64,000 nt of DNA from an uncultured Pelagibacteraceae bacterium (lineage in GTDB: Bacteria; Pseudomonadota; Alphaproteobacteria; Pelagibacterales; Pelagibacteraceae): NCBI GenBank assembly GCA_902592445.1, contig CACJEN010000002.1:1-64000 (forward strand), given 5' to 3'. The translations under genes were made by a program, and so were the position numbers. The notes under the pieces were generated by a model. That model saw only the letters and a list, made by a program, of their open reading frames with translations, made no database searches and was not told the DNA's origin. The stretch's first letter is position 1; each line of letters opens with the position of its first letter. Positions 27,498-54,471 of the stretch are shown one piece after another.

Positions 27498-27950
27498 CTA
27501 ATAATTATCTAAGATAATTTTTTTATTTTTTTCACTGAATAATTTATAGTTTGAAATAAAATATTTTTTAAGATCTAGATTTTTCGATTGATTATTTTTG
27601 CTTAATAAGAATGAATTTATAAATGATTTTTCAAAATCTTTATTTTTTTCTTTAGAGTAGTTGTCTATTATTAAATTATAATTCCAATAGTTTATATTAA
27701 GCACATTCCTTGAAGAGTTTTTTATTAAACCTTCTTTAATAAAGTCTCTATTTGTTGCATTTAAAAGAGATAAGTTTTTAAGATTATTTGGATAGTTTAC
27801 TAAGTATTTGTAATCATAAGGCATCATATTCCAAAGGCTATATTTCAAGCTTTTAAAGGGCAAAAAAAGGACTAATAATGAAATAATATTATATAAAATT
27901 AATATTATTAGTGAGTATTTTAAATACTTAAAACTATGAATGTTAGTCAT
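27498..27950 (-). CDS. Hypothetical membrane-anchored protein
   Basis: Single N-terminal hydrophobic helix YLKYSLIILILYNIISLLVLFLPF, 150 aa. Confidence 0.6.
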   Translation of the reverse strand: MTNIHSFKYLKYSLIILILYNIISLLVLFLPFKSLKYSLWNMMPYDYKYLVNYPNNLKNLSLLNATNRDFIKEGLIKNSSRNVLNINYWNYNLIIDNYSKEKNKDFEKSFINSFLLSKNNQSKNLDLKKYFISNYKLFSEKNKKIILDNY

Positions 27951-30900
27951 AAAAAGAATACTTTAAATTATAGAAATTTTTTTTTCAAAATATTTTTACT
28001 TTATTTTTTTTCAATCAATATAGCTTTTTCAGAAGGCAATAAAATTGGCTCAATTACTGAAATTGATGGTGAAGTTATTGCAATTACAGAGGAAGGTGAT
28101 GAAAGAATTTTAGATGTATATGATGAAATATTTTTAAAAGATGAAATTCTAATTGGGGAAAGTTCGTCTGCAACAATTCAATTTGATGATAATACCACAA
28201 TAGTGATGAAAGAATTAACGTCACTTAATGTAAGTGAGTTTGAGAAATCAGGCGCAAAGCAGAAATTCCAAGCAAAAGTTGGCAAAGGTAAAATCATAAT
28301 TGAAACAGGAGCTATTGCCAAAAATGCTGATGGTGAAATGTTGATAGATTTATCAAATATGTCTCTTGGTATTAGAGGTACAAGATTCAATGCAAGTGTT
28401 AAACCTAATGGGAATTCTGAGGTAGCTCTTGCAGAAGACAGCTTTGGTAGTGTTGGTCAAATTGAAATCTCATCTGAAGGTGAGACAACTAGTTTAACAT
28501 CTACTGACCAAGTTATTGAAGTAACAGAGACAAGAGAAATTGCACAACGTGCACAATCTGAGGAAGAGAAACAAGAGTTTAAATCTGTAAATGAAACTTT
28601 AGTAAAAGTTTCAAAAATTGATGAAAATGAATTAACCCAACAACTTGAAGAAAAACTTGCTAAAGGAAACCTTCAAGATGCAAATAATGACGGAGTTGTT
28701 GATATAAGTGACGTTGAAGCTGCAAAAGAAATTATAAAAGAGGAAAAAAAACAAAAAATAGATTTTATTGTTGAAAATAGTAATGACGATAATACCACTT
28801 TTTTATCTGATGTAATTGATCAATCGGATGACCAAAATATTGGTGAGACAATTGAAAAAATAATTGAAACAAAAGATACATTAGTTGAAGGAGTAGTTGG
28901 TAATTTATCAGACAAAGATAACGAGTTCATAACAACTTCCACCTCAGAAAGCGCAGGTTTAATTAAAGAAAAAATGTTTGAGACAATTGTTGCAAAAGAA
29001 ACAGACAAATCTGCAGAAGTATTAAGTAAAGTAATGGCAAAATCGGATGAAGCAACCATTAACTCCGTTATTAATAATATAACAGAAAAAAATACAAACG
29101 AAGAATCGAAATTGTCATTAAAAGTAATGGCAGATTTCTCTGAGAAATCTCCAGAAAAACTTCAAACATTATCTGAAACGAATAAAGATCAAATTGATAA
29201 ATTAGCCGTTTCTGCAGTTGAAAAAGCATCCACTTCGAATGAAGATGCAAATTTAATTGCAAAAGTTGTTTCAGTAGCGAGTGATGAACTAGCAAACAAA
29301 GTTGTTGAGGAGGTAAGTAAAAATAATACAGATGAAAAACAAGATCTTTCTGCAAAGGTTCTTAAGGCAATTGTAGAAACACAGCCAAATAAAATTGAAA
29401 TAATAAAAGATGAAATAAAAGACGTCGTGATCAAACAAACTGTTGAGGCAGTGAAAACTCAACAAGAAACAGAAATAAACGTAGCTATTGAAGATGATTT
29501 AACTGATGCGGTGGCATCAATCATTGTAAGCACTGATAATGATACAGCATCAAAATTAATTGAAGAGGTTTCAAACATTGAAACTGAAACGAACTTGTCT
29601 CTAAAAGTAATGTCTGGAATATCAGAAAAAGACTCTGATAAAATTAATAATTTAGCTGAGCTTAATAAAGAAAGTATAGACAAATTAGCAGAAAAAGCAG
29701 TCCAATCTGCAAAAAGTACAAAAGAAGATAGTGAATTAATTGCAAAAGTTGTAGCTGTTGCTAGTGATGAAATAGCAAACAAAGTTGTTGAGGAAGTAAG
29801 TAAAAATAATACTACAGAAAAACAAGACTTGTCAGCAAAGGTTCTTAAAGCCATTGTTGAGTCTCAACCAAGCAAAATTGATATTATTAATGACGAAATA
29901 AAAGATATAGTAATTAAACAAACTGTTGAGGCTGTAAAAACTCAACAAGAAACAGAAACAAACATAAATATTGAAGATGATTTAACCGATGTTGTTGCAG
30001 AAATTATTGTAAAAACAGATAATAATACTGCATCTAAATTGATTGAAGAAGTTTCTAATGTTGAAACTGAAACTAATTTATCTCTTAAAGTAATCGCAGG
30101 TATTTCTGAAAAGAGTGCAGAAAAATTCACAGAATTAACTGAAACAAACAAAGAACAAGTTGAAAAACTGACTATTTCAGCAATCCAAAAAGCAGAAAAT
30201 ACCACAGAAGATAGTCAACGTATTGCTAATGTTGTAGCAATCGCGAATGATGAACTTGCAAATAAAGTTGTCGAAGAGGTAAGCAAAACAGCTGTTGAAG
30301 AAAAAAAATCATTATCTATTAAAGTGCTAAAAGCAATTGTTGATACAGAACCTGAAAAAATTGAAATTATCAACGAAGATATTAAAGAAGATTTAATTGA
30401 AAAAGCAATTGATGCAACTAAAGATCAAAAAGAAGGTAATCTTATAGAGCAAGAGGATCTAACTGATGCAGTAAGTGAGATAATTGTCAAAACAGATGCA
30501 ACTACAGCCGCAAAAGTGATTGAAGAAATAAACGAAATTGATACTGAAACCAATCTATCTTTAGAGGTAATTTCAGGAGTCTCAGAAAAAGATTCTGAAA
30601 AATTGAATGAATTATCTGAAAATAACAAGGAACAAATAGATGAGCTTACAATAGATGCAGTTCAAAAAGCTGAAAATACATCAGAGGACAGTGAATTAAT
30701 TGCTCAAGTCGTGTCAGTTGTAAATAATGATTTAGTAAATGTAATGATTGAGGAAGTAAGTAAAGTTTCAACTGATGAGAAACAAACTTTATCAGCAAAG
30801 GTCCTACAAAAAATAGTTGATACAGAACCTGATAAAATGGAGATAATTAATGAAGAAGTAAAAGATGTCATGATTAAACAAACCGTTGAATCTGCTAAAA

Positions 30901-32432
30901 ATCAAAAAGAAGGAACAGGTGCTGTAGAGGAAGAGAATTTTACTGACATTGTATCTGAAATCATTGTTAAAACAAATACCGAAACTGCTAGCAAATTGAT
31001 AGATGAAATAAACGAAATCGACACAGAAACAAATCTATCTTTAGAGGTAATTTCAGGAATTTCAGAAAAAGATTCGGCAAAACTAAATGAGCTTTCTGAA
31101 AATAATAAAGACCAAATGGATGAATTAGCGACAGATGCCGTTCAAAAAGCTGAAAATACTTCAGAAGATAGTCAATTAATTGCAAACGTTGTTGCAGTTG
31201 TTAATGATGATTTAGTTAATAAAGTAGTAGAAGAAGTTAGTAAAAATTCAACTGATGAGAAACAAACGTTATCAGCTAAGGTTTTAAAAGCTATTGTAGA
31301 TACAGAGCCAAGTAAAATAGAAAATATTAATGAAGAGACAAAAACAACTATTATCAAACAAACTTTAGAAGCAGCTAAAAATCAGGAAGAAGGTCAGATT
31401 ACAGATGATGAAAATCTTTCAGATGTCGTTGCAGATATTGTAGTTAAAACAGATGTTGATACTGCATCAAAAATTATTGAGGAAGTTAACAATACAGAGA
31501 CAGAAACTTCTTTATCTCTAAAAGTTATGTCAGGAATTTCAGAAAAAGACGCTGATAAAATTAACGAACTTGCAGAAAATAATAAAGAAAATATTGATAA
31601 ATTAACTGAAAAAGCAGTTCAATCAGCCACAAGTTCAGATGAAGATAGCGAATTAATTGCAAAAGTAGTTTCAGTTGCAAGTGATGAAATTGCAAATAAA
31701 GTTGTTGAAGAAGTTAGCAAGACATCAACTGATGAAAAACAAGATTTATCTGCAAAAGTATTAAAAGCAATTGTTGATACAGAACCAAGTAAAATTGAAA
31801 CACTTGATGAGGAGATTAAAGAAAAAGTTATTGAACAAGCAATTGACGCAGCAAAAGATCAACAGGAAAACTTAACTGAAGGACAAACTTTGTCCAATGA
31901 GGAAGACTTAACTAATGTTGTTGCTGATATTGTTACCAAAGCAGATAATGATACAGCTGCAAAAGTTTTAGAAACTTTAAATGAAGCATCAGAAGATACA
32001 GATTCCAAGCTTTCTTTAAGTGTTGTTGAAAATTTAACAAAGAAGGAAAATTATGAGGAAAAAATAGAGATATTGTCTGTGACATCAACTGTTGTGGACG
32101 AAAGTATTAGTAAAATGATGGAAAAAGCAGTTGAACAAGCTGAAACTGAAAACGACATCGAGAAAGTTAAAAATATTGTAGAAAATAGCAAAGGCACATT
32201 ATCGAATAAATTAATAGACAGTGCTAATAAAAATGAAGAGAGTAAGAAAAAGATTACTGAGGTAATAGTAGATATTGTTGAAGAAAATCCCGAAAAGGCA
32301 GTTGAAATTATTGAAAAAAATGAAAACACTACAACTGTTACTGAAACAATTAAAACCAAAATTGAAAATGACGAAGCTGTCACATCTGAAGATTTTGAAG
32401 ATGTGTTTGATACAAATGTTTCTCCTAACTAA
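27936..32432 (+). CDS. Secreted FecR-domain protein with EF-hand/dockerin-like loop and ~160-aa repeats (1498 aa)
   Basis: Signal peptide; FecR-like GSITEIDGEVIAI...LSNMSLGIRGTRFNASV; repeats on the LIAKVVSVASDELANKVVEEVSKNN theme. Confidence 0.88.
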   Translation: MNVSHKKNTLNYRNFFFKIFLLYFFSINIAFSEGNKIGSITEIDGEVIAITEEGDERILDVYDEIFLKDEILIGESSSATIQFDDNTTIVMKELTSLNVSEFEKSGAKQKFQAKVGKGKIIIETGAIAKNADGEMLIDLSNMSLGIRGTRFNASVKPNGNSEVALAEDSFGSVGQIEISSEGETTSLTSTDQVIEVTETREIAQRAQSEEEKQEFKSVNETLVKVSKIDENELTQQLEEKLAKGNLQDANNDGVVDISDVEAAKEIIKEEKKQKIDFIVENSNDDNTTFLSDVIDQSDDQNIGETIEKIIETKDTLVEGVVGNLSDKDNEFITTSTSESAGLIKEKMFETIVAKETDKSAEVLSKVMAKSDEATINSVINNITEKNTNEESKLSLKVMADFSEKSPEKLQTLSETNKDQIDKLAVSAVEKASTSNEDANLIAKVVSVASDELANKVVEEVSKNNTDEKQDLSAKVLKAIVETQPNKIEIIKDEIKDVVIKQTVEAVKTQQETEINVAIEDDLTDAVASIIVSTDNDTASKLIEEVSNIETETNLSLKVMSGISEKDSDKINNLAELNKESIDKLAEKAVQSAKSTKEDSELIAKVVAVASDEIANKVVEEVSKNNTTEKQDLSAKVLKAIVESQPSKIDIINDEIKDIVIKQTVEAVKTQQETETNINIEDDLTDVVAEIIVKTDNNTASKLIEEVSNVETETNLSLKVIAGISEKSAEKFTELTETNKEQVEKLTISAIQKAENTTEDSQRIANVVAIANDELANKVVEEVSKTAVEEKKSLSIKVLKAIVDTEPEKIEIINEDIKEDLIEKAIDATKDQKEGNLIEQEDLTDAVSEIIVKTDATTAAKVIEEINEIDTETNLSLEVISGVSEKDSEKLNELSENNKEQIDELTIDAVQKAENTSEDSELIAQVVSVVNNDLVNVMIEEVSKVSTDEKQTLSAKVLQKIVDTEPDKMEIINEEVKDVMIKQTVESAKNQKEGTGAVEEENFTDIVSEIIVKTNTETASKLIDEINEIDTETNLSLEVISGISEKDSAKLNELSENNKDQMDELATDAVQKAENTSEDSQLIANVVAVVNDDLVNKVVEEVSKNSTDEKQTLSAKVLKAIVDTEPSKIENINEETKTTIIKQTLEAAKNQEEGQITDDENLSDVVADIVVKTDVDTASKIIEEVNNTETETSLSLKVMSGISEKDADKINELAENNKENIDKLTEKAVQSATSSDEDSELIAKVVSVASDEIANKVVEEVSKTSTDEKQDLSAKVLKAIVDTEPSKIETLDEEIKEKVIEQAIDAAKDQQENLTEGQTLSNEEDLTNVVADIVTKADNDTAAKVLETLNEASEDTDSKLSLSVVENLTKKENYEEKIEILSVTSTVVDESISKMMEKAVEQAETENDIEKVKNIVENSKGTLSNKLIDSANKNEESKKKITEVIVDIVEENPEKAVEIIEKNENTTTVTETIKTKIENDEAVTSEDFEDVFDTNVSPN
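28677..28712 (+). other. EF-hand/dockerin-type calcium-binding loop coding segment
   Basis: DANNDGVVDISD fits DxNxDGxxDxxD. Confidence 0.7.
29110..32000 (+). repeat. Long protein-coding tandem repeat, about six units of 159-161 codons
   Basis: The L(I/R)AxVVxVxxD motif recurs at 29253, 29736, 30219, 30696, 31176 and 31653 (spacings 483, 483, 477, 480, 477 nt). Confidence 0.9.
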
Positions 32433-40628: not shown

Positions 40629-41534
40629 GTGAAAAACAAAAATTTTAGAAAATTGTTGAATATTAATTTAAAAAATTTTGAGTTAGAAAAAATAATAAAA
40701 AAAGAATTAAATAAATATATAATAATTATTAAATCAAGGAACCAAGGATTAAAATATATAAACAAAATTCATTTAAGTAAATTTTCAATTAAGCTAGGAC
40801 ATAATGAGAAAAAGGGGTACATATTTTTTAAAAAAAAAAAAATAAATAAAATCAGAGTTCCAAAATATAAAACCATAGTAAGCTTATCAAAAAAATATGT
40901 ATCAAAAATAGATTATATAAAAGGAATAGATGTAAATTATCTTGATATTGAAGCACTAAAATATCTTCTTAAATATTCTGTAAAAACAAAAAAGAAAATT
41001 TGTATTAAACAATATCTAAATATAATTAATGATAATTTTAAATCAATTTATTCATTTGATATATCAAAAGAATTAATCATTGATTGGTCAAGAATAATTA
41101 GAAAAATTAAACAGGACATTTTTATTAGTTCGAGTCATGGTGATTTTACACACAAAAATTTAATCAAACAAAAAAATAATTATTTCTTGATAGATTTTGA
41201 ATTTTTTTCAAAGAGAAGGACATACCTCTATGACTCAATTCACTGGTTAATTCCTCCATTATTGAAAAGAACTAATAATTTTCTAATGAGAAAAATAAAT
41301 TTTAGTTTTTTATTTATATTTTATTTAAAAATGTTTTATAGGTTAATTGGATATGATATTAATAAAAATGAAGTTAAGGTTAATTTAATTCTTTATTTTT
41401 TAGAACAGAAATTTTTTTATAAATTACCAAATATTTTAACTAAAGAAAAAAAATTGTTATCTCAAAAAAGAATAAAAGAAAGCAAATATCTCTCAAGGAT
41501 TTATTCAAGACAATTAAATTATTTATTAAAATAA
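40629..41534 (+). CDS. APH/choline-kinase-fold phosphotransferase-like protein
   Basis: SSHGDFTHKNLIKQKNNYFLIDFEFFSKR resembles HGDxxxxN...IDFE kinase motif. Confidence 0.65.
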   Translation: MKNKNFRKLLNINLKNFELEKIIKKELNKYIIIIKSRNQGLKYINKIHLSKFSIKLGHNEKKGYIFFKKKKINKIRVPKYKTIVSLSKKYVSKIDYIKGIDVNYLDIEALKYLLKYSVKTKKKICIKQYLNIINDNFKSIYSFDISKELIIDWSRIIRKIKQDIFISSSHGDFTHKNLIKQKNNYFLIDFEFFSKRRTYLYDSIHWLIPPLLKRTNNFLMRKINFSFLFIFYLKMFYRLIGYDINKNEVKVNLILYFLEQKFFYKLPNILTKEKKLLSQKRIKESKYLSRIYSRQLNYLLK

Positions 41535-41536
41535 AA

Positions 41537-42571
41537 ATGAAACTTGAAAAATTCCTTATTTATTTATTTAAAGAATTTGAAAAAAAAAAAATTAATTACT
41601 GTATCCTCAGAAACTACGAGACTTTACCAAAAAAATTAAATTCAAATGATATAGATATTTTAATAGAAAAAAAAAATATTAATTTAATAATTAGCATTAT
41701 CCAGAAAATAAAGAAAATTTTATTATTTCATCAAAGGGATTATTTAACATCTATAACTGTAGGTGATGTAATAAATAATAGAAAAAATTTTGTAAAAATT
41801 GATTTTTTAAATAAAGTTTGCTGGAAAGGAATACCTTTTTTAGAAAACAAAGATATTTTTTCTAGCAGAAAAAAATTTAAAAAAATTTTCTTTATACCGG
41901 AGAAAAACCATGAGGCTATAATCACTTTCTTTTCAAGTTATCTTGTTGGAGGTTGGATAAAAAAAAAATATCAAGAAAAAATTAAAAAGATTTTTATTAA
42001 TAATTCAAATCAAGTAGAAAATATTTTTTCAAAAAAATTTTCATTTAAAACATCTAAGGACATAGTTGAAGGTGTAAAGAAAAATAAATTAAAATTTTTA
42101 TTACAAAAATTAATTACAGTAAAATTTGAATTATTCTATGGACAATTCTCAAATAATTTTTTTAAATGTTTTTATATTTTATTTATCTATTTTTTATATG
42201 AAATAAGAATGAAATTTAGCCAGTATTCTTTAATTTATCTAGAAATAGAATATGAAAATTTAAAAATAAAAAAAAAAATAGACCAAGTTATAAATAAAAG
42301 AATAAAATTATTGTTTAATAAAACGTCTATCTTAAACAATTTTTCGATTTTTAACCAATTAATTTTAAAATTTTACAATCCAATAAAAAATCAACATCTT
42401 TTAGTTAAATATAAAATTAAAAATTTAAATTCTACAAATGGAATTTTCTATGTTGCGAGGCCAGATTATAAAATAATCTTTAATGATAAGAAAGGCGAAA
42501 GCTTAAAATATTGTGAAAAAAAAATACATAATATTTTAAATAGAATAGCTAAAAGAAAAATAAATCAATGA
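41537..42571 (+). CDS. Nucleotidyltransferase-fold protein (polysaccharide-locus type)
   Basis: NYCILRNYETLPKKLNSNDIDILIEKKN (xDxDhhh-like signature). Confidence 0.6.
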   Translation: MKLEKFLIYLFKEFEKKKINYCILRNYETLPKKLNSNDIDILIEKKNINLIISIIQKIKKILLFHQRDYLTSITVGDVINNRKNFVKIDFLNKVCWKGIPFLENKDIFSSRKKFKKIFFIPEKNHEAIITFFSSYLVGGWIKKKYQEKIKKIFINNSNQVENIFSKKFSFKTSKDIVEGVKKNKLKFLLQKLITVKFELFYGQFSNNFFKCFYILFIYFLYEIRMKFSQYSLIYLEIEYENLKIKKKIDQVINKRIKLLFNKTSILNNFSIFNQLILKFYNPIKNQHLLVKYKIKNLNSTNGIFYVARPDYKIIFNDKKGESLKYCEKKIHNILNRIAKRKINQ

Positions 42572-43830
42572 ATTTTCAATTTATAAAAGATTTTCTTTCA
42601 AAAAAAAAATTAAATTTAATTTTTTTTGAACAGCTTATAACAAGTGGTACTAGTTTTATTTCAACAATTGTAATAATCAATTTGATAGGCTTGCATAGTT
42701 TTGGTATTTTTACTTTTTATTGGATATTTTACTTATTAATTAATTCCATACAAAATTCTTTAATTATTTCACCAATGATGACAAATATTGCTTTTTACAA
42801 AGATAATGAAAAAATGTTGTTTGTTGGATCTGTTTTATTACAACAAATAATATTTTTGTTATTAATTATTATTTTTATAAAAATACTTTTTATTATTCCA
42901 TTTATTAGTCTAGAGCTTATACAAAAAGAATACATAAATAGTTTTATATTCCTAATTTTAAGTTCTCAAATTTATCAATTTTTTAGAAGATATTTTTTCT
43001 CACAAAAAATGTTTTTTTATTCTCTATTTACAAGTTTTTTAGTAGGTTTAACTTTATTTGGATTATTACTTTACAATTACATTTTAAATCAAATTAATAT
43101 TAAAGAAATTTTTTATTGTTACATTTATTCATTTTCTATTACTATTTTATTTTGTTCTATCTTTTTAAAAAATTTTAGATTTTCAATTCATGCTTTTTTA
43201 GTTTCAATTAAAGAAAATTTTAAAATTTCTAAATGGCTTTTTTTAACAGCAATATTACAGTGGTTTTCTGGTAATTTATGGATTTTAAATTCAGGATTAA
43301 TCTTAGGTCCAGTTTTTCTTGGCGCTTTTCGTGCTTGCCAAACAATTGTTAATATAGTCAATATCTTTTTTCAGTCACTAGAGAATTACTTTCCTCGAAA
43401 AATTTCTGAAATATATAGAGACAGTTCAATTTATAATATGAAAAAGTATATTAGCACAATAAACAAAATTGGATTTGTATTTATTTTGGTAATCTCAATA
43501 ATTTTATCTATCTCCTCTAAATTTATTCTAAGTCTTATTTATGAGGAAAATATAGTAAGTTATTATTATCTTTTAATAATATTAAGTTTTTTATTACCTT
43601 TAATGTTTATAAATTATTTTTATAGCTTCGGTTTAAGAACTTTAAAAAATACCAAGCCAATTTTTATTTCATATTTATTTAGTAGTAGCTTCGCTTTAAT
43701 TGCTTCAAATACAATAATATCAAATTTTGAGGAAAAAGGGTTTGTATTTGGAATTATTTTGTCACAATTATTTATATCTATTATTACATATTTAGGTTTT
43801 TATTTATCAACAAAATCTAGCAAATTATGA
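42568..43830 (+). CDS. Oligosaccharide flippase / polysaccharide biosynthesis membrane protein (Wzx-like)
   Basis: Polytopic; FFEQLITSGTSFISTIVIINLIGLHSFGIFTFYWIFY...GPVFLGAFRACQTIVNI. Confidence 0.82.
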   Translation: MNFQFIKDFLSKKKLNLIFFEQLITSGTSFISTIVIINLIGLHSFGIFTFYWIFYLLINSIQNSLIISPMMTNIAFYKDNEKMLFVGSVLLQQIIFLLLIIIFIKILFIIPFISLELIQKEYINSFIFLILSSQIYQFFRRYFFSQKMFFYSLFTSFLVGLTLFGLLLYNYILNQINIKEIFYCYIYSFSITILFCSIFLKNFRFSIHAFLVSIKENFKISKWLFLTAILQWFSGNLWILNSGLILGPVFLGAFRACQTIVNIVNIFFQSLENYFPRKISEIYRDSSIYNMKKYISTINKIGFVFILVISIILSISSKFILSLIYEENIVSYYYLLIILSFLLPLMFINYFYSFGLRTLKNTKPIFISYLFSSSFALIASNTIISNFEEKGFVFGIILSQLFISIITYLGFYLSTKSSKL

Positions 43831-44405
43831 AATTAAAAAAAAAAATAAATGTAATAGCAGTTATGGGTCCCGATGGGTCTGGTAAGACTTTTTTCATTAA
43901 TGTTTTAATTAAGAAATTAAAAATTAAAAATTTAACCATTAAAAGAATTCATTTAAAACCCTCTTTATTCAATTCAAATATAACAAATGTTTCTAACCCA
44001 CATTCAAAAAAACCAAGAAATGTTATCTTTTCTATTTTAAAATTATTATATTGGTTACAGATTTATTATTTATTTACTTTATTAAAATATTTTCAAAACA
44101 AAAAAAAAATTTATATTTTTGATAGATATGTTCACGATGTATTAGTTGATCCATTAAGATATAGAGTGAAATTGAATTTTATAATTAAATTTATTATTAA
44201 TTTCTTTCCAAAACCAGATATCTGGCTATTTATGAACCCAAACATAAAGACTATTTGGTCAAGAAAACGAGAGATAAAGTATGACACATTAATCAAGCAA
44301 TTAATTTATTATAAAAAACTTAAAAAAAAACTTAGTAACTCTTTTTTAATCTCTAATAAATTTGATTATATCAAAATTTTAAACTTAATAAAAAAAAACT
44401 ATTAA
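43827..44405 (+). CDS. Thymidylate-kinase-like P-loop kinase
   Basis: VMGPDGSGKTFFINVLIKKLK...IYIFDRYVHDVLVDPLRYR. Confidence 0.75.
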   Translation: MKLKKKINVIAVMGPDGSGKTFFINVLIKKLKIKNLTIKRIHLKPSLFNSNITNVSNPHSKKPRNVIFSILKLLYWLQIYYLFTLLKYFQNKKKIYIFDRYVHDVLVDPLRYRVKLNFIIKFIINFFPKPDIWLFMNPNIKTIWSRKREIKYDTLIKQLIYYKKLKKKLSNSFLISNKFDYIKILNLIKKNY

Positions 44406-44408
44406 ATT

Positions 44409-45614
44409 ATGAAAATATTACTTTCAGCATACGCATGTGAACCAAATACAGGGTCTGAACCAAATGTTGGATGGAATTGGGCATTAGGATTATCAGATTT
44501 AGGACACAATGTAACTGTGATTACTAGAAAAAATAATGAGAGTAAAATCAAAAGATTTCTTTCCAATAAAAAAAAAAAAAAGATTAAATTTTTATATTAT
44601 GATTTACCATCCTGGCTACAATATTTAAAAAAAAAAAATTCTTTCTTTTTATATATCTATTATTATCTTTGGCAGTATCTATCTTTTAAAAACTACAAAC
44701 ATATTGCTTACAAGCATGATTTAGTTCATCACATAACTTTTGGCACTTATAGATTTCCATCATTTTTTTCAAAAATTAATAGACCATTGATATTTGGTCC
44801 TGTAGGTGGTGCAGAAACTACTCCTATAAATATAATTAAAACTCTTTCTTTAACACAACAACTCAGAGAATACTTAAGATATATAAGTAATTTTATTTTA
44901 GTAAATTTTAATTTTCAATTAATTTCATGTGTTAAAAATTCATATTTGGTTATATCAAGAACTGAAGAAACCAAAAAAGTTATTCAAAGATTAACAAAAA
45001 ATTATATACCCGTCATTTCTGAAATAGGAATTAATAGATCTTTTAAAAAAAAAATTTCAAATTCAAAAAATACTAATTATTTATTTGTAGGTAGACATAT
45101 TTACTGGAAAGGAGGAAGTTTAGTTATTCAATCATTCAATGAGGCACTAAAAAAAAATAAAAATATAAGGTTAAATTTTGTTGGGGATGGACCTCAAAAA
45201 AAAGAATGGATGAGTTTAGTTAAAAAATTTAAAATTCAAAAATTTGTAAAATTTCATCCATGGCAAAAACTTGCAAATATGAAGAATTTTTATAAAAAAA
45301 ATGATGTTTTTATTTTTCCTAGTTTTCATGATTCTGGTGCTGGGGTTGTAAACGAAGCTTTATCTTATTCATTACCGGTAATTTGCTTAGATTTAGGAGC
45401 CCCTGGTGCTAAAGTTGATTATAAATGTGGTTTTTTAATAAAAAGTAAAAAATTAACCTTAACGATAGATTTTTTAATTAAACAAATATCAAATAAAATT
45501 TTAATTCTTTCTCAAAATAAATCTTTGCTTAAAGAATTAAGCAATGGGGCATATATTAAATCAAAAAGCTTCACTTGGAAAAAGATCATCAAAATGGCCT
45601 ACAAAAACGTATGA
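44409..45614 (+). CDS. Glycosyltransferase family 4/1
   Basis: CEPNTGSEPNVGWNWALGLSDLGHNVTVIT...LFVGRHIYWKGGSLVIQSF...VFIFPSFHDSGAGVVNEALSYSLPVICLDLG. Confidence 0.9.
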   Translation: MKILLSAYACEPNTGSEPNVGWNWALGLSDLGHNVTVITRKNNESKIKRFLSNKKKKKIKFLYYDLPSWLQYLKKKNSFFLYIYYYLWQYLSFKNYKHIAYKHDLVHHITFGTYRFPSFFSKINRPLIFGPVGGAETTPINIIKTLSLTQQLREYLRYISNFILVNFNFQLISCVKNSYLVISRTEETKKVIQRLTKNYIPVISEIGINRSFKKKISNSKNTNYLFVGRHIYWKGGSLVIQSFNEALKKNKNIRLNFVGDGPQKKEWMSLVKKFKIQKFVKFHPWQKLANMKNFYKKNDVFIFPSFHDSGAGVVNEALSYSLPVICLDLGAPGAKVDYKCGFLIKSKKLTLTIDFLIKQISNKILILSQNKSLLKELSNGAYIKSKSFTWKKIIKMAYKNV

Positions 45615-46444
45615 AATCATCTCGAAAAATTTCTATTATTACCCCTTCATATAATCAAGGTAATTTTATTGAGGATGCAATCATATCAGTTATGAAACAA
45701 GGTTATTCAAATTACGAGCATATAATAGTTGATGGCGGTTCAACTGATGAAACACTTTCAATACTTAGAAAATATCCACATTTGATTTGGATATCTGAAA
45801 AAGATAAAGGTCAAACAGATGCTCTTCAAAAAGCACTACAAAAAGTTTCTGGCGATATAATTGGTTGGCTTAATGCAGATGATTATTATGATAAAAATAT
45901 TTTTTTTAAAGTTGAAAAAGAACTTAACATTGAAAATGTTGACGCTATATACGCGAATTTAAAATATGTTGATATAAACAAACTTTTAATTAGAGAAAGG
46001 ATTTCAAAATCATCTTATTTTTTAAGTAATAAATTTGTATCGAAGTTTATTTGTTTTATCCCATCAACTACATTTTTCTTTAAAAGAGAAATATTGAATG
46101 AAAAAATTTATTTTGATAAAAATATAAATTTTGGAATGGATAAAGATTTTTTTGCAAATATTTACCATAATAATTTTAAAATTAAAAAAATTGAAACAAA
46201 CTTTGCCTTTTTTAGATTACATGAAAATAATAAGTTTGAACACAAAAGAAATATTAATAATTTAATCAATGATACAAAAGAGGGCATTTTGATTTATAAT
46301 AAATATTCCAAACTCAAATTACCAAAAAACATCTTTGGATTTACAACATACTTAGTTATAAGATTTTTTATCAAAATATTAGGATTTTTAATATTTAACT
46401 TTTCAAAAAAAAAATTGAAATATGAAAATATTACAAGTTCATAA
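45611..46444 (+). CDS. Glycosyltransferase family 2
   Basis: SIITPSYNQGNFIEDAIISVMKQGYSNYEHIIVDGGSTDETL...GWLNADDYY. Start refined from 45575; overlaps upstream stop (ATGA). Confidence 0.92.
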   Translation: MKSSRKISIITPSYNQGNFIEDAIISVMKQGYSNYEHIIVDGGSTDETLSILRKYPHLIWISEKDKGQTDALQKALQKVSGDIIGWLNADDYYDKNIFFKVEKELNIENVDAIYANLKYVDINKLLIRERISKSSYFLSNKFVSKFICFIPSTTFFFKREILNEKIYFDKNINFGMDKDFFANIYHNNFKIKKIETNFAFFRLHENNKFEHKRNINNLINDTKEGILIYNKYSKLKLPKNIFGFTTYLVIRFFIKILGFLIFNFSKKKLKYENITSS

Positions 46445-47546
46445 CGAATACATTTACAGAGGTGGTGAAGAAACTGTATTAGAGGCTGAGAAAGAATTGC
46501 TTACTAGAAATGGACATGCTGTATATCAAATAATTAGAAGCAATAAAGTAGAGATAAAAAACTTATTTGATGTATTTAGAACATTAAGTCAAATCGCTTA
46601 TTCAAAAAAAAGTTTAAATATACTAGAGGAAAAAATTAACCAAAGAGATCTTCCAGATATTGTACATATACATAATATTTTTCCATTATGGACTTACTCA
46701 ATAATAGATTATTTTAATAAAAAAAATATTCCAATAGTAATGACATTACATAATTATAGATTAATTTGGGATACAATTAGTTTTTTTGATAAAGAGTTTT
46801 CTAAATTTGGCCTTTTCAAAAATTCAAGAATTTTAACATACATTGTATCTCGTATTTTTAATAAAAAAAAAAAATTAATTAAGAATGTTGATAAATTTAT
46901 TACATTTACAAATTTTACAAGAAATAAAATTTTAAGATCTGGTTTGTCTAAATCGAAAATTGAAATTAAACCTAATTTTCTTGTTAATAAGTTTAAAAAA
47001 AATAAACCTTTTTCAAAAAAAGAAAATGCAATATATGCATCAAGAATATCAAAAGAAAAGGGAGTAATTACATTATTGCAGGCTTGGGGCGATATTGATT
47101 TAAAACTTAATGTTTATGGAGATGGACCATTGTTTAAATTTTGTAAAACAAATCAAAATCAAAACATCAATTTTCATGGCAATAAAAAACGTGAATACGT
47201 CAATAAAAAAATTTCTAATTCTAAAATGTTAATCTTTCCATCTGAGTGGTATGAATGTATGCCAATGACAATACTTGAAGCTTTTAATGAAGGCACACTT
47301 GTAATAGCATCAAATATTGGAAGTATTTCAAATATTATAAAAAACTTTCATAATGGCATACTTTTTGAACCTGGTAATTCTAATGACTTGAATAAAAAAG
47401 TGAAATGGGCTCTGAAAAATCCAATACAATGTAACAAAATAGCCGATAATGCTAAAAAGATCTTTTTAGCTAAATACTCTGAAAACGTAAATTATAAATC
47501 GTTAATAAGTATTTATAGAAACACTATCAAGCAAAAGAAATTGTAA
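46422..47546 (+). CDS. Glycosyltransferase family 4/1
   Basis: MKILQVHNEYIYRGGEETVLEAEKELL...IVHIHNIFPLWTYSI...YASRISKEKGVITLLQAW...MTILEAFNEGTLVIASNIGS. Confidence 0.92.
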   Translation: MKILQVHNEYIYRGGEETVLEAEKELLTRNGHAVYQIIRSNKVEIKNLFDVFRTLSQIAYSKKSLNILEEKINQRDLPDIVHIHNIFPLWTYSIIDYFNKKNIPIVMTLHNYRLIWDTISFFDKEFSKFGLFKNSRILTYIVSRIFNKKKKLIKNVDKFITFTNFTRNKILRSGLSKSKIEIKPNFLVNKFKKNKPFSKKENAIYASRISKEKGVITLLQAWGDIDLKLNVYGDGPLFKFCKTNQNQNINFHGNKKREYVNKKISNSKMLIFPSEWYECMPMTILEAFNEGTLVIASNIGSISNIIKNFHNGILFEPGNSNDLNKKVKWALKNPIQCNKIADNAKKIFLAKYSENVNYKSLISIYRNTIKQKKL

Positions 47547-47548
47547 AA

Positions 47549-48646
47549 ATGCCGAGAATTATTCACTATCTTCCGGAGTTCTTTCTGACACACCACGGCG
47601 TAACCGAAGCAATTCTACACATGATTAAAGCAAAAGAAAAATTAAAAAAAAAATTCAACATTTTATGTTCTAACGAAGAATTAAAAATAAATCATTCTTA
47701 TAAAAAACATAGATTGCCAATTAAACATTTATTTAGAAAAAAATTTTCTTTTCCCTTATTTTCAGGATTAGATTTTGAAAAATATAAAAATGATTTATTT
47801 ATTATCCATAGCGTTTTTACTTTACAAAATTATGTTTTGAGCAAATATTTGAAGTTTAATAATATAAATTATGTATTAATACCCCACGGCGGATATATAC
47901 ATAGAAATCTAAAAAAAAATTTTTTTACATTTATTTTAAAAAAAATATGGATTTTTTTTTTTGAAAGTGAAATTTTAAAAAATTCCAAACATATAATAGC
48001 ATTAACCAGTCGTGAAAAAAAAGATATTTTAAAAAATTTTAATATTTCAACAAATCATGTAAAAATTATAGAATATCCAATATTATTTAATAATTATCAA
48101 AGAGTCAAAAATAAAAAAAATATTATTTCGTCAGTATGTAGAGCGGATATATTTCACAAAGGATTGGATATTTCTCTTATAGCATTTGATTTATCTAATT
48201 TAAAAAATTTTGAATTTAGACTTCATTTAACACAATATTCAAAATCAAAAAATAAAATAGAAACAATAATTTCAGCACTTAAAAATAAAAAAAAAGTAAA
48301 AGTATTAAAACCAATTTATAAAAATAAAAAGATAGAATTATTAAAAAATTCAAAGATTGGACTGTTTACCTCAAGATATGAGGCGTTTGCAAGTAGTCTT
48401 TGGGAATCTTTATGGTATGGGCAAGAATGTGTCGTGTCAAATGATATGAATGTTGCACCATTGTTGAAAAAATTTAATATTGCCCATGTTTGTAAAAATA
48501 AACCCGAAATTTTGGCTAAAAATTTAATTATAGCATCAAATAAAATTAAAAACACTTCCTATAGAAGAAAAAAATTATTTAAATTTTTATCTCAAGAACA
48601 ATATGTAAAAAAAATTTTTAAATTAATTAATGAAGATATTAAATAA
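47549..48646 (+). CDS. Glycosyltransferase (GT4-like)
   Basis: LIPHGGYIHRNLKK...SVCRADIFHKGLDISLIAF...SKIGLFTSRYEAFASSLWESLWYGQECVVSNDMNVAPLL. Confidence 0.82.
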   Translation: MPRIIHYLPEFFLTHHGVTEAILHMIKAKEKLKKKFNILCSNEELKINHSYKKHRLPIKHLFRKKFSFPLFSGLDFEKYKNDLFIIHSVFTLQNYVLSKYLKFNNINYVLIPHGGYIHRNLKKNFFTFILKKIWIFFFESEILKNSKHIIALTSREKKDILKNFNISTNHVKIIEYPILFNNYQRVKNKKNIISSVCRADIFHKGLDISLIAFDLSNLKNFEFRLHLTQYSKSKNKIETIISALKNKKKVKVLKPIYKNKKIELLKNSKIGLFTSRYEAFASSLWESLWYGQECVVSNDMNVAPLLKKFNIAHVCKNKPEILAKNLIIASNKIKNTSYRRKKLFKFLSQEQYVKKIFKLINEDIK

Positions 48647-49394
48647 TAGAATTAAAATAATAAACTATTTTATTAACTCTATATCTATAGAAGATGTTTT
48701 AAAATATATTCTTAATTTTAGTAAAAAAAAAAAATCAAAATTCATTTGTCTTTCGAATGTACATAGTTGTATCGAAAGTTTTAAAGATAATAAATTTAAG
48801 AAAGCACATAATTCTGCAGATTTAGCTTTAGCAGACGGAAGACCGATTTTTTGGGCATTGAGATTGTTAGGTTCAAAAAATGCAAAACATTTACCTGGTT
48901 ACTACGTCACAGAAAAGTTATGTGAACTTGCGCATAGAAAAAAACTAAATATCGGTTTTTATGGATCTACTGATGATAATTTAAATAAAATAAAAATAAA
49001 TTTAAAAAAAAAATATAAGAAACTTAAAATCAAATATGTTTTTTCACCACCATTTAGAAAATTAAAAAATGCAGAAAGTAAAAAAATAATTCTACAAATT
49101 AATAAATCTAAAGTTGATATTCTTTTTGTTTGTTTAGGTTGTCCCAAGCAAGAATTGTGGATGTATCAACATAGAAATAAACTAAACTGTACTATGCTCG
49201 GTATAGGAGCTGTTGCTGATTTTTTATCAGGCAACAAAATTTTACCTAATAAGTTTTTTGAATATTTGGGTTTGGCATGGTTTATAAGATTAATTACTGA
49301 GCCAAGACGGCTGTTTTGGCGTTATTTTTCAACAAACTTTCTTTTTATTTTTTTGTTCTTTCTTCAAATCACTGGATTAAAAAAATTCAAATAA
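48630..49394 (+). CDS. WecG/TagA/CpsF-family glycosyltransferase (GT26)
   Basis: SADLALADGRPIFWALRLLG...IGFYGSTDDNL...LFVCLGCPKQELWMYQHRNKLNCTMLGIGAVADFLSGN...LAWFIRLITEPRRLFWRY. Confidence 0.93.
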   Translation: MKILNNRIKIINYFINSISIEDVLKYILNFSKKKKSKFICLSNVHSCIESFKDNKFKKAHNSADLALADGRPIFWALRLLGSKNAKHLPGYYVTEKLCELAHRKKLNIGFYGSTDDNLNKIKINLKKKYKKLKIKYVFSPPFRKLKNAESKKIILQINKSKVDILFVCLGCPKQELWMYQHRNKLNCTMLGIGAVADFLSGNKILPNKFFEYLGLAWFIRLITEPRRLFWRYFSTNFLFIFLFFLQITGLKKFK

Positions 49395-51293: not shown

Positions 51294-52028
51294 ATGAATA
51301 AATTAATATTTGAAAAAATTACCTTTGTTAATTTAAAACACAAAGAATTAAACGAAATATTTAAACATGATGGGTTATTTTTGTTTCCATCAGCTCCTGG
51401 TTTAGCAAGTATTATTGATAAGAAAAAATACTATAATTCACTTCAAAAGGCAGATTTGGTATTTTTTGATAGTAGTTTTTTTATCTTACTTCTTAGACTT
51501 TTTAAAAATATATCTCCAATAAGAGTCTCGGGATACAAATTTTTAGAACTATATTTTAATTTTTTGAGAAAAAATAAAAAATCTAAAATATTTCTAATAG
51601 ATCCCTCAAAAAAAAAATCAGTTAATAACAAATTGCTAATAAACAAATTAGGTATAAAAAATAATAAAATTTTTAGTTTTGTAGCACCTTTTTATAATCC
51701 AAATAATTTAAATGACAAAAATTTGTTGAAATACATACATAAATTTAAACCAAACGTAATATTAATAAATATTGGTGGAGGAACACAAGAAATTTTGGGC
51801 AGTTATTTGAAAAGTAAAATAAAATTTAAGTGTAAAATAATTTGTACTGGTGCTGCCATCTCATTTTTTACAAAAGACCAAGCTCCAATTAATAATTTTA
51901 TAGATAAATTTTATCTGGGTTGGTTGATTAGATCAATTTTTAATCCATTTTCTTTTCCAAAAAGATTAATTTATGCATTAAAACTTATAAAAATTGTTAA
52001 AAATAGTAATTGTAAAATAATAAAATAA
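51294..52028 (+). CDS. Divergent WecG/TagA-family (GT26-like) glycosyltransferase
   Basis: FDSSFFILLLRLFKNISPIRVSGYKFLELYF...NVILINIGGGTQEILGSYLK...CTGAAISFFTKDQAPINNFIDKFYLGWLIRSIFNP. Confidence 0.75.
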   Translation: MNKLIFEKITFVNLKHKELNEIFKHDGLFLFPSAPGLASIIDKKKYYNSLQKADLVFFDSSFFILLLRLFKNISPIRVSGYKFLELYFNFLRKNKKSKIFLIDPSKKKSVNNKLLINKLGIKNNKIFSFVAPFYNPNNLNDKNLLKYIHKFKPNVILINIGGGTQEILGSYLKSKIKFKCKIICTGAAISFFTKDQAPINNFIDKFYLGWLIRSIFNPFSFPKRLIYALKLIKIVKNSNCKIIK

Positions 52029-52029
52029 T

Positions 52030-54471
52030 ATGGAAAAAAAATTACCACAATCTTGCAAAGTAGTTGTCATTGGTGGTGGAGTTGTAGGAACCTCTTGCGC
52101 ATACCATTTGGCAAAATTTGGGTGGAAAGATGTTATATTATTAGAAAGAGATCAACTTACTTCTGGCACTACTTGGCATGCAGCTGGATTAGTAAGTCAA
52201 TTAGGTCCATCTGCAGCAATTACCAAAATTAGAAAATACACATTAGATTTGTATAAAGAACTTGAAAAAAAAATTGATCATTCCCCAGGATTAAGATTAA
52301 ACGGTGCACTTTCAATTGCAGAAAATAAAGGTAGATGGCAGGAACTGCAAAGGCAAGCAACTACAGCACAGCTCTACAATGTAGATGTACAAATTTTAGA
52401 TAAAGATCAAATTAAAAAAAAGTATCCAATAGTAAATACAGATGAAATCATAGGTGGAATTTTAATGCCTGGTGATGGTGCAGCTGATCCATCTGGCGTG
52501 ACTCATATGTTAGCAAAAGCTGCAAAGATAGAGGGAGCAAAAATTTATGAGAAATCTCCAGTTAAAGAAATCATAACAAAAAATGGAAGAATTTCTGGAG
52601 TAAAAGTTGATAATCATATTATTGACTGTGAATATATTGTTCTAGCATCAGGAATGTGGTCTCGACAAATCGGTGAAAAAGCTGGGGTAAGTATTCCTCT
52701 TTATCCAGCAGAACATTTTTATATTATTACTGAACCAATTAAAAATCTCTCAAATAGTTTACCTGTAATAAGAGATTTTGATAATCGTACATATATTAAA
52801 GAAGATGCTGGTAAAATATTAGTTGGAATCTTTGAGGGAAATTCAATACCTGCATGGAATAAAACCAATGTTGTGCCAGAAGATTTTTCTTTTGGAGAAT
52901 TTCAAGAAAATTTTGAACATTTCGAACCTTATCTAAATTCTGCAATCAAAAGATTTCCAGTTTTAAAAACAGCAGGAATAAGAAAATTTTTCTCTGGTCC
53001 AGAATCATTTACACCAGACACAAATACTCTTTTAGGAGAAGTCCCTGAGATTAAAAACTTTTTTGTATGTTGTGGTTTAAATAGCATTGGAATTGGAAGT
53101 GGGGGTGGTGTTGGAAAAGTAACAGCTGAGTGGTTGATCAATGGTCACATCAACGAGGATATATTTTCATATGACATTAAAAGATTTCAGAATTTTCATT
53201 CAGAATTGGGTTTTATAAAAGAGAGGATTACCGAAACGTTAGGAGATTTATATGGTATGCATTGGCCTTTTAAACAGCATAAAACATCAAGAAATCAAAA
53301 AATTACCCCTTATCATGATGAAATGCGAAAAGCTGGAGCTTGCTTTGGAGTTACAGGTGGATATGAAAGACCAATGTGGTTTGCAACTAATGGTGAGAAA
53401 CCCGAGTATCAATATTCATATAATTATCAAAATTGGTATCCAGCAGTAGAGCATGAAACAAAAAATACAAGAGAAAATGTTGGTTTATACGATCTCACAG
53501 CTTTCTCTAAATATGATTTAAAAGGTAAAAATGTTCATTATGAACTCCAGAGACTTTGTACTGCTAATATCAAAAATGACCCAGGCAAAACATCATACAC
53601 TCAAATGTTGAATGAGGATGGTGGTATAGAAACTGATTTAACGGTTGTTTGTATAACAAAAGAACATTTTAGAGTTATTACCTCTGCTGCAAACCGAGAG
53701 AGAGATAAATTTCATATTTTAAGACACCTATCTAATGAAATAGATTTTAAAGATGTGACTGATGATATTGCATGTTTTGGTTTATTTGGTCCAAAAAGCA
53801 TAGATCTTCTTCGAAAATTAACAAATGATGATATCTTAAAAGATAGTATTAATTATGCATCATTTAAAAAAGTACAAATAGATAACATAGATATTTTGGC
53901 ACAAAGATTATCTTATGTTGGCGAACATGGTTTTGAACTTTACATGGATATCAATAATTCCAAAAAAATTTTTAATTTGATTTATGAGACTGGAAAAGAA
54001 TTTAATTTATCTTTATGTGGAATGCATGCATTGGATACAATGCGAATGGAAACAGGATTTTTACATTGGGGTCATGATATATCACCAGAAGAGAATCAAT
54101 ATCAAGCAGGATTGAATTTTGCTATTAGTTATAAAAAAAATATAGATTTTATAGGAAAAGATAAATTATCCAAAATTAAAGATAAAACTCTAGATAAAAG
54201 AATGATGATGTTTACATTAAAAGAAAGTAAACCAGGTGAACCATTATTACTTCATGATGAACCAATATACTTAGAAGATAAAATTATAGGTAGAACAACA
54301 TCTGGAAATTATTCATTTTGCTTTAATAAAAACTTATCATTTGGATACGTAAACTCAGGAAATACAAAGGAAACATTAAAAAATAAAAAAATTTATATTG
54401 AAGTTGAAAAAAAGAAATATCCAGTTGAAATATTAGAAAAACCTTTAAACCAAAAAAATTTCAGGAATTAG
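52030..54471 (+). CDS. FAD-dependent oxidoreductase / GcvT fusion (dimethylglycine/sarcosine dehydrogenase-like)
   Basis: VVVIGGGVVGTSCAYHLAKFGWKDVILLERDQLTSGTTWHAAGLVSQLG; GcvT part YVGEHGFELYMDINNSKKIFNLIYETG. Confidence 0.92.
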   Translation: MEKKLPQSCKVVVIGGGVVGTSCAYHLAKFGWKDVILLERDQLTSGTTWHAAGLVSQLGPSAAITKIRKYTLDLYKELEKKIDHSPGLRLNGALSIAENKGRWQELQRQATTAQLYNVDVQILDKDQIKKKYPIVNTDEIIGGILMPGDGAADPSGVTHMLAKAAKIEGAKIYEKSPVKEIITKNGRISGVKVDNHIIDCEYIVLASGMWSRQIGEKAGVSIPLYPAEHFYIITEPIKNLSNSLPVIRDFDNRTYIKEDAGKILVGIFEGNSIPAWNKTNVVPEDFSFGEFQENFEHFEPYLNSAIKRFPVLKTAGIRKFFSGPESFTPDTNTLLGEVPEIKNFFVCCGLNSIGIGSGGGVGKVTAEWLINGHINEDIFSYDIKRFQNFHSELGFIKERITETLGDLYGMHWPFKQHKTSRNQKITPYHDEMRKAGACFGVTGGYERPMWFATNGEKPEYQYSYNYQNWYPAVEHETKNTRENVGLYDLTAFSKYDLKGKNVHYELQRLCTANIKNDPGKTSYTQMLNEDGGIETDLTVVCITKEHFRVITSAANRERDKFHILRHLSNEIDFKDVTDDIACFGLFGPKSIDLLRKLTNDDILKDSINYASFKKVQIDNIDILAQRLSYVGEHGFELYMDINNSKKIFNLIYETGKEFNLSLCGMHALDTMRMETGFLHWGHDISPEENQYQAGLNFAISYKKNIDFIGKDKLSKIKDKTLDKRMMMFTLKESKPGEPLLLHDEPIYLEDKIIGRTTSGNYSFCFNKNLSFGYVNSGNTKETLKNKKIYIEVEKKKYPVEILEKPLNQKNFRN

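Follow-up and report, generated by a model that had tools for sequence, protein, structure and literature searches.

What would a polysaccharide locus do with three nucleotide-using enzymes packed around its flippase? This question is raised by positions 40629-44405 of the 64,000-nucleotide stretch of DNA analysed here (the window), which comes from an uncultured Pelagibacteraceae bacterium. As a first-pass annotation made from the letters alone had said, a kinase open reading frame (ORF), a nucleotidyltransferase (NTase) ORF and a P-loop kinase ORF stand there around a gene for the flippase Wzx; the setting is an exopolysaccharide (EPS) locus in a 1.1-Mb alphaproteobacterial genome. The first kinase has the APH fold, the NTase is of the pol-beta type and the P-loop kinase has the fold of thymidylate kinase (TMK). 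Comparison with relatives lends good support to the view that these three enzymes act as one functional unit of a particular type of Wzx/Wzy-dependent EPS pathway.

The evidence begins with gene fusions. A search of the class with the TMK-like protein of the window turned up, in a few genomes, proteins of ~450 residues that have the TMK domain as their C-terminal half and whose N-terminal half aligns with the window NTase; in some of these genomes Wzx and an APH kinase adjoin the NTase-TMK gene, and the same arrangement was found on Leisingera and Legionella plasmids. A profile (A1) made from five NTase-TMK fusions of other bacteria, with no window sequence in it, was run on 398 genomes; in the genome that holds the window it matched both ORFs, TMK at E 3.4e-32 and NTase at E 2.0e-9. 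The two window genes therefore correspond to halves of a usually single protein, and the window NTase is, judged by this homology, the rarer split form of the usual NTase-TMK chain. The matches L006-L008 and most of the weak A1 matches are P-loop noise and were set aside. Among GTDB species genomes a scan turned up at least 207 relatives, from which 80 loci of about 18 phyla were kept; NTase and TMK are fused in 69 of the 80, and an APH kinase of one subfamily lies no more than 1.5 kb away in 52, usually as the next, overlapping gene. NTase-TMK is the commonest fusion in the module. NTase-TMK-APH chains occur in Aquificales, Bacillota and Binatota (L057, L068, L071), with a longer one in L016, and the three-domain chain gave a model with pLDDT 90.5 and pTM 0.79; a complete Hymenobacter plasmid has the reversed order, APH-NTase-TMK. 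The flippase takes part as well: two betaproteobacterial lineages (L067, L119) have Wzx-APH fusions and L079 has Wzx-TMK, and in L100 APH is fused to a GT4 glycosyltransferase (GT4-a). Taken together, the fusions leave no part unconnected, since they link Wzx, APH, TMK, NTase and GT4-a. Beside one NTase-TMK fusion, a Wzx of Bradyrhizobium type (L221:8463-10904, G717) is joined to another kind of kinase-like domain (HGDLTLDNIL...FVDAG), possibly as a replacement for APH.

Co-occurrence was counted in the 54 of the 80 loci with more than 15 kb of sequence, and the control was 40 alphaproteobacterial polysaccharide loci of similar size centred on the sugar transferase PF02397. An APH profile match lay within 8 kb in 42/54 test loci versus 0/40 controls (Fisher p 4e-16). 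The reverse search, starting from APH, covered 398 Pseudomonadota genomes: APH reached E <= 1e-6 in only 27 and more than 100 bits in five, and all five have NTase-TMK adjacent, among them G692, whose NTase-TMK is so divergent that the forward search missed it there. A chance juxtaposition is thus ruled out by the A1 matches, the fused majority, the APH counts and the reverse search, and the co-occurrence in polysaccharide loci on which the first-pass annotation had staked its case holds beyond chance. At a threshold of at least 60 bits, GT4-a was found in 44/54 test versus 0/40 control loci, a second GT4 glycosyltransferase (GT4-b) in 38/54 versus 2/40, and the Wzx subfamily in 25/54 versus 0/40; these three also belong to the module. 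WecG is less specific (30/54 versus 4/40), and GT2 was seen in 9/54 versus 0/40. The common families among the 107 neighbour proteins of ten loci are GT4 enzymes, epimerases/dehydratases, Wzy and WecG, and in this set we found no conserved special small-molecule pathway and no conserved phosphatase or receiver partner. Nothing useful came from plasmid searches (tblastn) in which the window's NTase and APH were the queries, or from a phage search.

The label 'dTMP-kinase-like' that the P-loop kinase had been given is right as to fold and wrong as to function. The 192-residue window protein (43827-44405) belongs to PF02223, with a Thymidylate_kin score of 33.3 bits against a gathering cut-off of 27 and with both the P-loop and the DR motif present; it carries G14xDGxGKT (the P-loop GPDGSGKT, residues 14-21), D99-R100-Y, D104, D108, R111 and R146-K-E149, and the P-loop, R100 and R146 are kept in 68/68 aligned family members. 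Foldseek on the L057 model returned TMK matches, and the PDB profile matches of the TMK domain are likewise TMKs. With thymidylate kinases (PF02223/TIGR00041) the family thus shares the fold, the P-loop GxDGxGK[ST], DR[YH] and the Arg-rich lid region, but its members lie in EPS loci, are fused to NTase and score far below the equivalog cut-off: TIGR00041 gives the window protein 21.1 bits and its relatives 34-36, where 83.25 are needed. The thymine/dTMP motif DRxxxSxxAYQ occurs in 0/68 members, the AYQ region being replaced by a conserved D104...(V)D108P-x-R-Y-R, and the true housekeeping tmk, with DRFSDSTVAYQ, lies elsewhere in the same genome (G000:C8). The score, the missing motif and the separate normal tmk together rule out that the protein is a dTMP kinase. 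In a tree of the TMK domain the distribution is patchy across phyla, with repeated splitting of the NTase-TMK fusion; the window protein forms a long branch whose exact place is unsure.

The NTase domain of the window (residues 1-225 of a 344-residue protein, 41537-42571) has the fold of the pol-beta superfamily, with two adjacent catalytic aspartates, D38 and D40 in NSNDIDILIE (residues 35-44), and a distal one, D89; these are kept in 73/74, 73/74 and 71/74 aligned members. In the AF2 model pLDDT is mostly above 90 over the domain, and the C-terminal ~118 residues (~226-344; 42212-42568) are mostly of low confidence and carry no domain assignment. Foldseek placed LnuA (4fo1) at the top with probability 1.00, followed by Pol mu and a small alarmone synthetase. 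LnuA-type and other pol-beta NTases and PF14907 share this fold and its D-x-D plus distal Asp; the family NTase differs in being fused to a TMK-like kinase and in being matched by no Pfam or NCBIfam model, and no such match was found for the window NTase or its split relatives. A distant relative, L041, gives a sub-threshold match to PF14907 (NTP_transf_5; 17.7 bits versus a cut-off of 31.2), hinting at a larger superfamily of NTase-kinase proteins; L019, L022 and L041 are more distant fusions of an NTase and a P-loop kinase, and no fewer than two of these lie in loci of polysaccharide type. In one relative (L108:6570-7967) the NTase runs on into a decayed TMK domain, which scores 72.7 bits and has a P-loop reading LDPDGSYNAE, and the gene sits beside an intact separate TMK gene, which by its sequence is a duplication of TMK and then decay of one copy. 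A decayed TMK, considered also for the C-terminal part of the window NTase, is shown in L108 alone; for the remaining split NTases the profile comparison gave no significant match.

The APH-fold kinase of the window (301 residues, 40629-41534, with a GTG start) carries HGDFTHKN at residues 170-177 and IDFE at 188-191. Its catalytic H170, D172, N177, D189 and E191 are invariant in 51/51 members, the window included, and K46/E60 of the N-lobe are also conserved. It gives no PF01636 match itself, yet its orthologues L043, L120, L057 and L015 pass that cut-off, and phmmer independently finds it homologous to the APH kinases at other trio loci, with E-values of 1.2e-6 and weaker. PDB matches of the APH profile are APH enzymes and choline kinases, including 4r77, which we take to be pneumococcal LicA. 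The HGDxxxxN and DxE motifs and the fold are common to this family and the APH/choline-kinase superfamily (PF01636; 4r77; APH(2'')), from which it stands apart as a separate subfamily, many members having an N-terminal extension, tied to Wzx and NTase-TMK. With these residues kept in all three families (71-73/74 for the NTase, 68/68 for the P-loop, 51/51 for APH), degenerate enzymes, the other outcome that would have told against the first-pass proposal, are ruled out.

In the window itself, positions 40629-44405 carry all three parts and Wzx in one EPS operon with the catalytic residues kept. The Wzx-type MOP flippase (420 residues, 42568-43830; MatE 25.6 bits, cut-off 24.9) and the TMK fold are all that Pfam recognises among these four proteins; the flippase is of the subfamily that is fused to APH or TMK in other bacteria. 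The genes run in one direction, on the forward strand, with gaps of 2-3 nt or overlaps of 4 nt, and a GT4-a enzyme of the module, of the 'SAYACEPNTGSEP...GW' type (44409-45614), starts 3 nt past the TMK-like gene; because of this spacing the five genes read as one tightly packed operon. On the same strand follow a GT2 glycosyltransferase of the same operon with a weaker association (45614-46444; Glycos_transf_2 match), a module-associated GT4-b of the 'RGGEE' type (46422-47546) and a WecG/TagA-family glycosyltransferase (48630-49394; PF03808, 161.6 bits). G+C is 0.19 across the trio region versus ~0.30 in the flanks, and the NTase gene was not found in the 200 genus-level relatives searched; the stretch therefore looks like a strain-variable island. 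The EPS locus also holds a second, different WecG/TagA-family glycosyltransferase (51294-52028, 58.6 bits). Just upstream of the locus lies a gene (27936-32432) for a 1498-residue FecR-domain protein (PF04773) with an internal tandem repeat of ~483 bp (2.1 copies, 78% match), and directly downstream a fusion of an FAD oxidoreductase with GCV_T, dimethylglycine/sarcosine-dehydrogenase-like (52030-54471).

What, then, might the unit do? The sequences themselves show that the parts are homologous from locus to locus, keep their catalytic residues, lie together and are fused in more than one order to each other and to the flippase and a GT4; the substrate, the order of steps and the product given here are our inference. 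The fusions to flippase and GT4, taken with the lack of small-molecule genes among the neighbours, lead us to favour action on the lipid-linked repeat unit, and we put the probability that a three-enzyme complex at the inner leaflet modifies this unit before flipping at about 0.4. The assembly would have Wzx and the GT4 enzymes as its neighbours there. The APH-fold kinase would phosphorylate a sugar hydroxyl; the TMK-fold kinase would phosphorylate that phosphate, as nucleoside monophosphate kinases do, or a bound nucleotide; and the NTase would transfer a nucleotidyl or phosphoryl-alcohol group, the product being a repeat unit with a phosphate or nucleotidyl group on it, to be recognised by this Wzx subfamily. 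We also entertain, tentatively and as rather unlikely, the wider idea that an undescribed cross-phylum three-enzyme machine tags lipid-linked units with phosphate or nucleotide and that a co-evolved Wzx subfamily reads the tag, a 'tag-then-flip' licensing that would yield unfamiliar nucleotidylated or diphosphorylated EPS. Several observations weigh against modification before flipping. APH went undetected in 12 of the 54 loci, and so may not be obligatory or may have been replaced; the control loci are alphaproteobacterial and the test loci span phyla, a mismatch for which the reverse search was added and which it partly answers; the L016, L079 and L100 fusions are single cases from draft genomes; the window APH has HK where most members have PW in HGDFxPWN; and the trio may have a regulatory role in place of a biosynthetic one.

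Such a role would make the trio a licensing complex, in which ATP- or nucleotide-dependent binding and phosphorylation of Wzx, the glycosyltransferases or the lipid-linked unit gate flipping and leave the final polymer unmarked. The fusions of Wzx to APH, to TMK and to the other kinase would suit it, as would the co-conservation of the trio with a Wzx subfamily, but three different complete active sites are conserved, more than a gate seems to need, and the neighbouring genes include no conserved phosphatase or receiver; we judge it improbable. It is also conceivable, if doubtful, that the enzymes make a soluble precursor in the manner of LicA and LicC: APH would phosphorylate a sugar or a small alcohol, which the NTase would then activate as a nucleoside diphosphate compound; the TMK-like kinase would recycle or charge the nucleotide and a transferase would decorate the glycan. 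A kinase and a nucleotidyltransferase are the classic activation pair, choline kinases including 4r77 are among the structures matched by the APH profile, and the NTase fold is confirmed, with the LnuA adenylyltransferase nearest to it. Against this, no genes for small-molecule synthesis are conserved among the neighbours, the kinases are fused to flippase and GT4 and not to a precursor enzyme, and the pol-beta NTase is unlike LicC, a sugar nucleotidyltransferase of Rossmann type. The first-pass annotation had suggested an activation step for an unusual glycan substituent, and here it divides: phospho- and nucleotidyl-transfer fits the folds, whereas a soluble precursor goes unsupported because no small-molecule pathway is conserved with the trio and because of those same fusions. 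That the genes are unrelated accessories which only happen to share a recombining EPS island, with a spare nucleotide kinase as the TMK-like protein, would agree with the low G+C and with the absence of the NTase from the 200 relatives; it is contradicted by the co-occurrence and fusion statistics, by the canonical tmk elsewhere and by the loss of DRxxxSxxAY from all 68 members, and we regard it as scarcely credible. An anti-phage defence system was rejected too, since PADLOC gave only weak P-loop matches and the context is EPS.

Known systems offer partial likenesses. The LicA-LicC-LicD phosphocholine pathway and fukutin/FKRP/POMK on dystroglycan set a protein-kinase- or APH-fold kinase and an NTase-fold enzyme to work on a glycan, as in the trio, but to our knowledge they include no TMK-like enzyme and no flippase fusion; of the partners of LicA/LicC/LicD type (a dedicated cytidylyltransferase, a CDP-dependent phosphotransferase, alcohol-synthesis genes), none is conserved among the 107 neighbours in ten loci. 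The nearest precedent in logic is the O-methyl phosphoramidate (MeOPN) modification of the Campylobacter capsule, in which a kinase, a nucleotidyltransferase and a P-loop kinase lead to a phospho-substituent. Its enzymes have other folds (PEP-synthase-like, Rossmann cytidylyltransferase, APS-kinase-like) and are joined by dedicated transferases; they and the trio are not known to be homologous. In the chain-terminating kinase/methyltransferase WbdD the kinase acts on a lipid-linked glycan before export, as we propose for the trio, but in an ABC-transporter pathway and with no NTase or TMK. APH proteins of L014, L015 and L016 (one family, f195) have an extra N-terminal region of ~110-130 residues that looks Rossmann/methyltransferase-like by eye only and is reminiscent of WbdD.

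We found no description of the trio among 5.4 million open-access papers and nothing useful on the module in a Sphingomonas EPS paper (PMC11340318); in the database records examined, its genes go under the names hypothetical protein or phosphotransferase. Each of the folds is familiar by itself, and surface glycans are known to be decorated in nucleotide-dependent ways. Polysaccharide loci are usually read as glycosyltransferases plus Wzx/Wzy, and here three intact nucleotide-using enzymes join that export core across about 18 phyla. The single-chain three-enzyme versions are well suited to biochemistry. If our proposal is true, common environmental exopolysaccharides would contain a hidden phosphate or nucleotide chemistry, and the trio would be its genetic marker.

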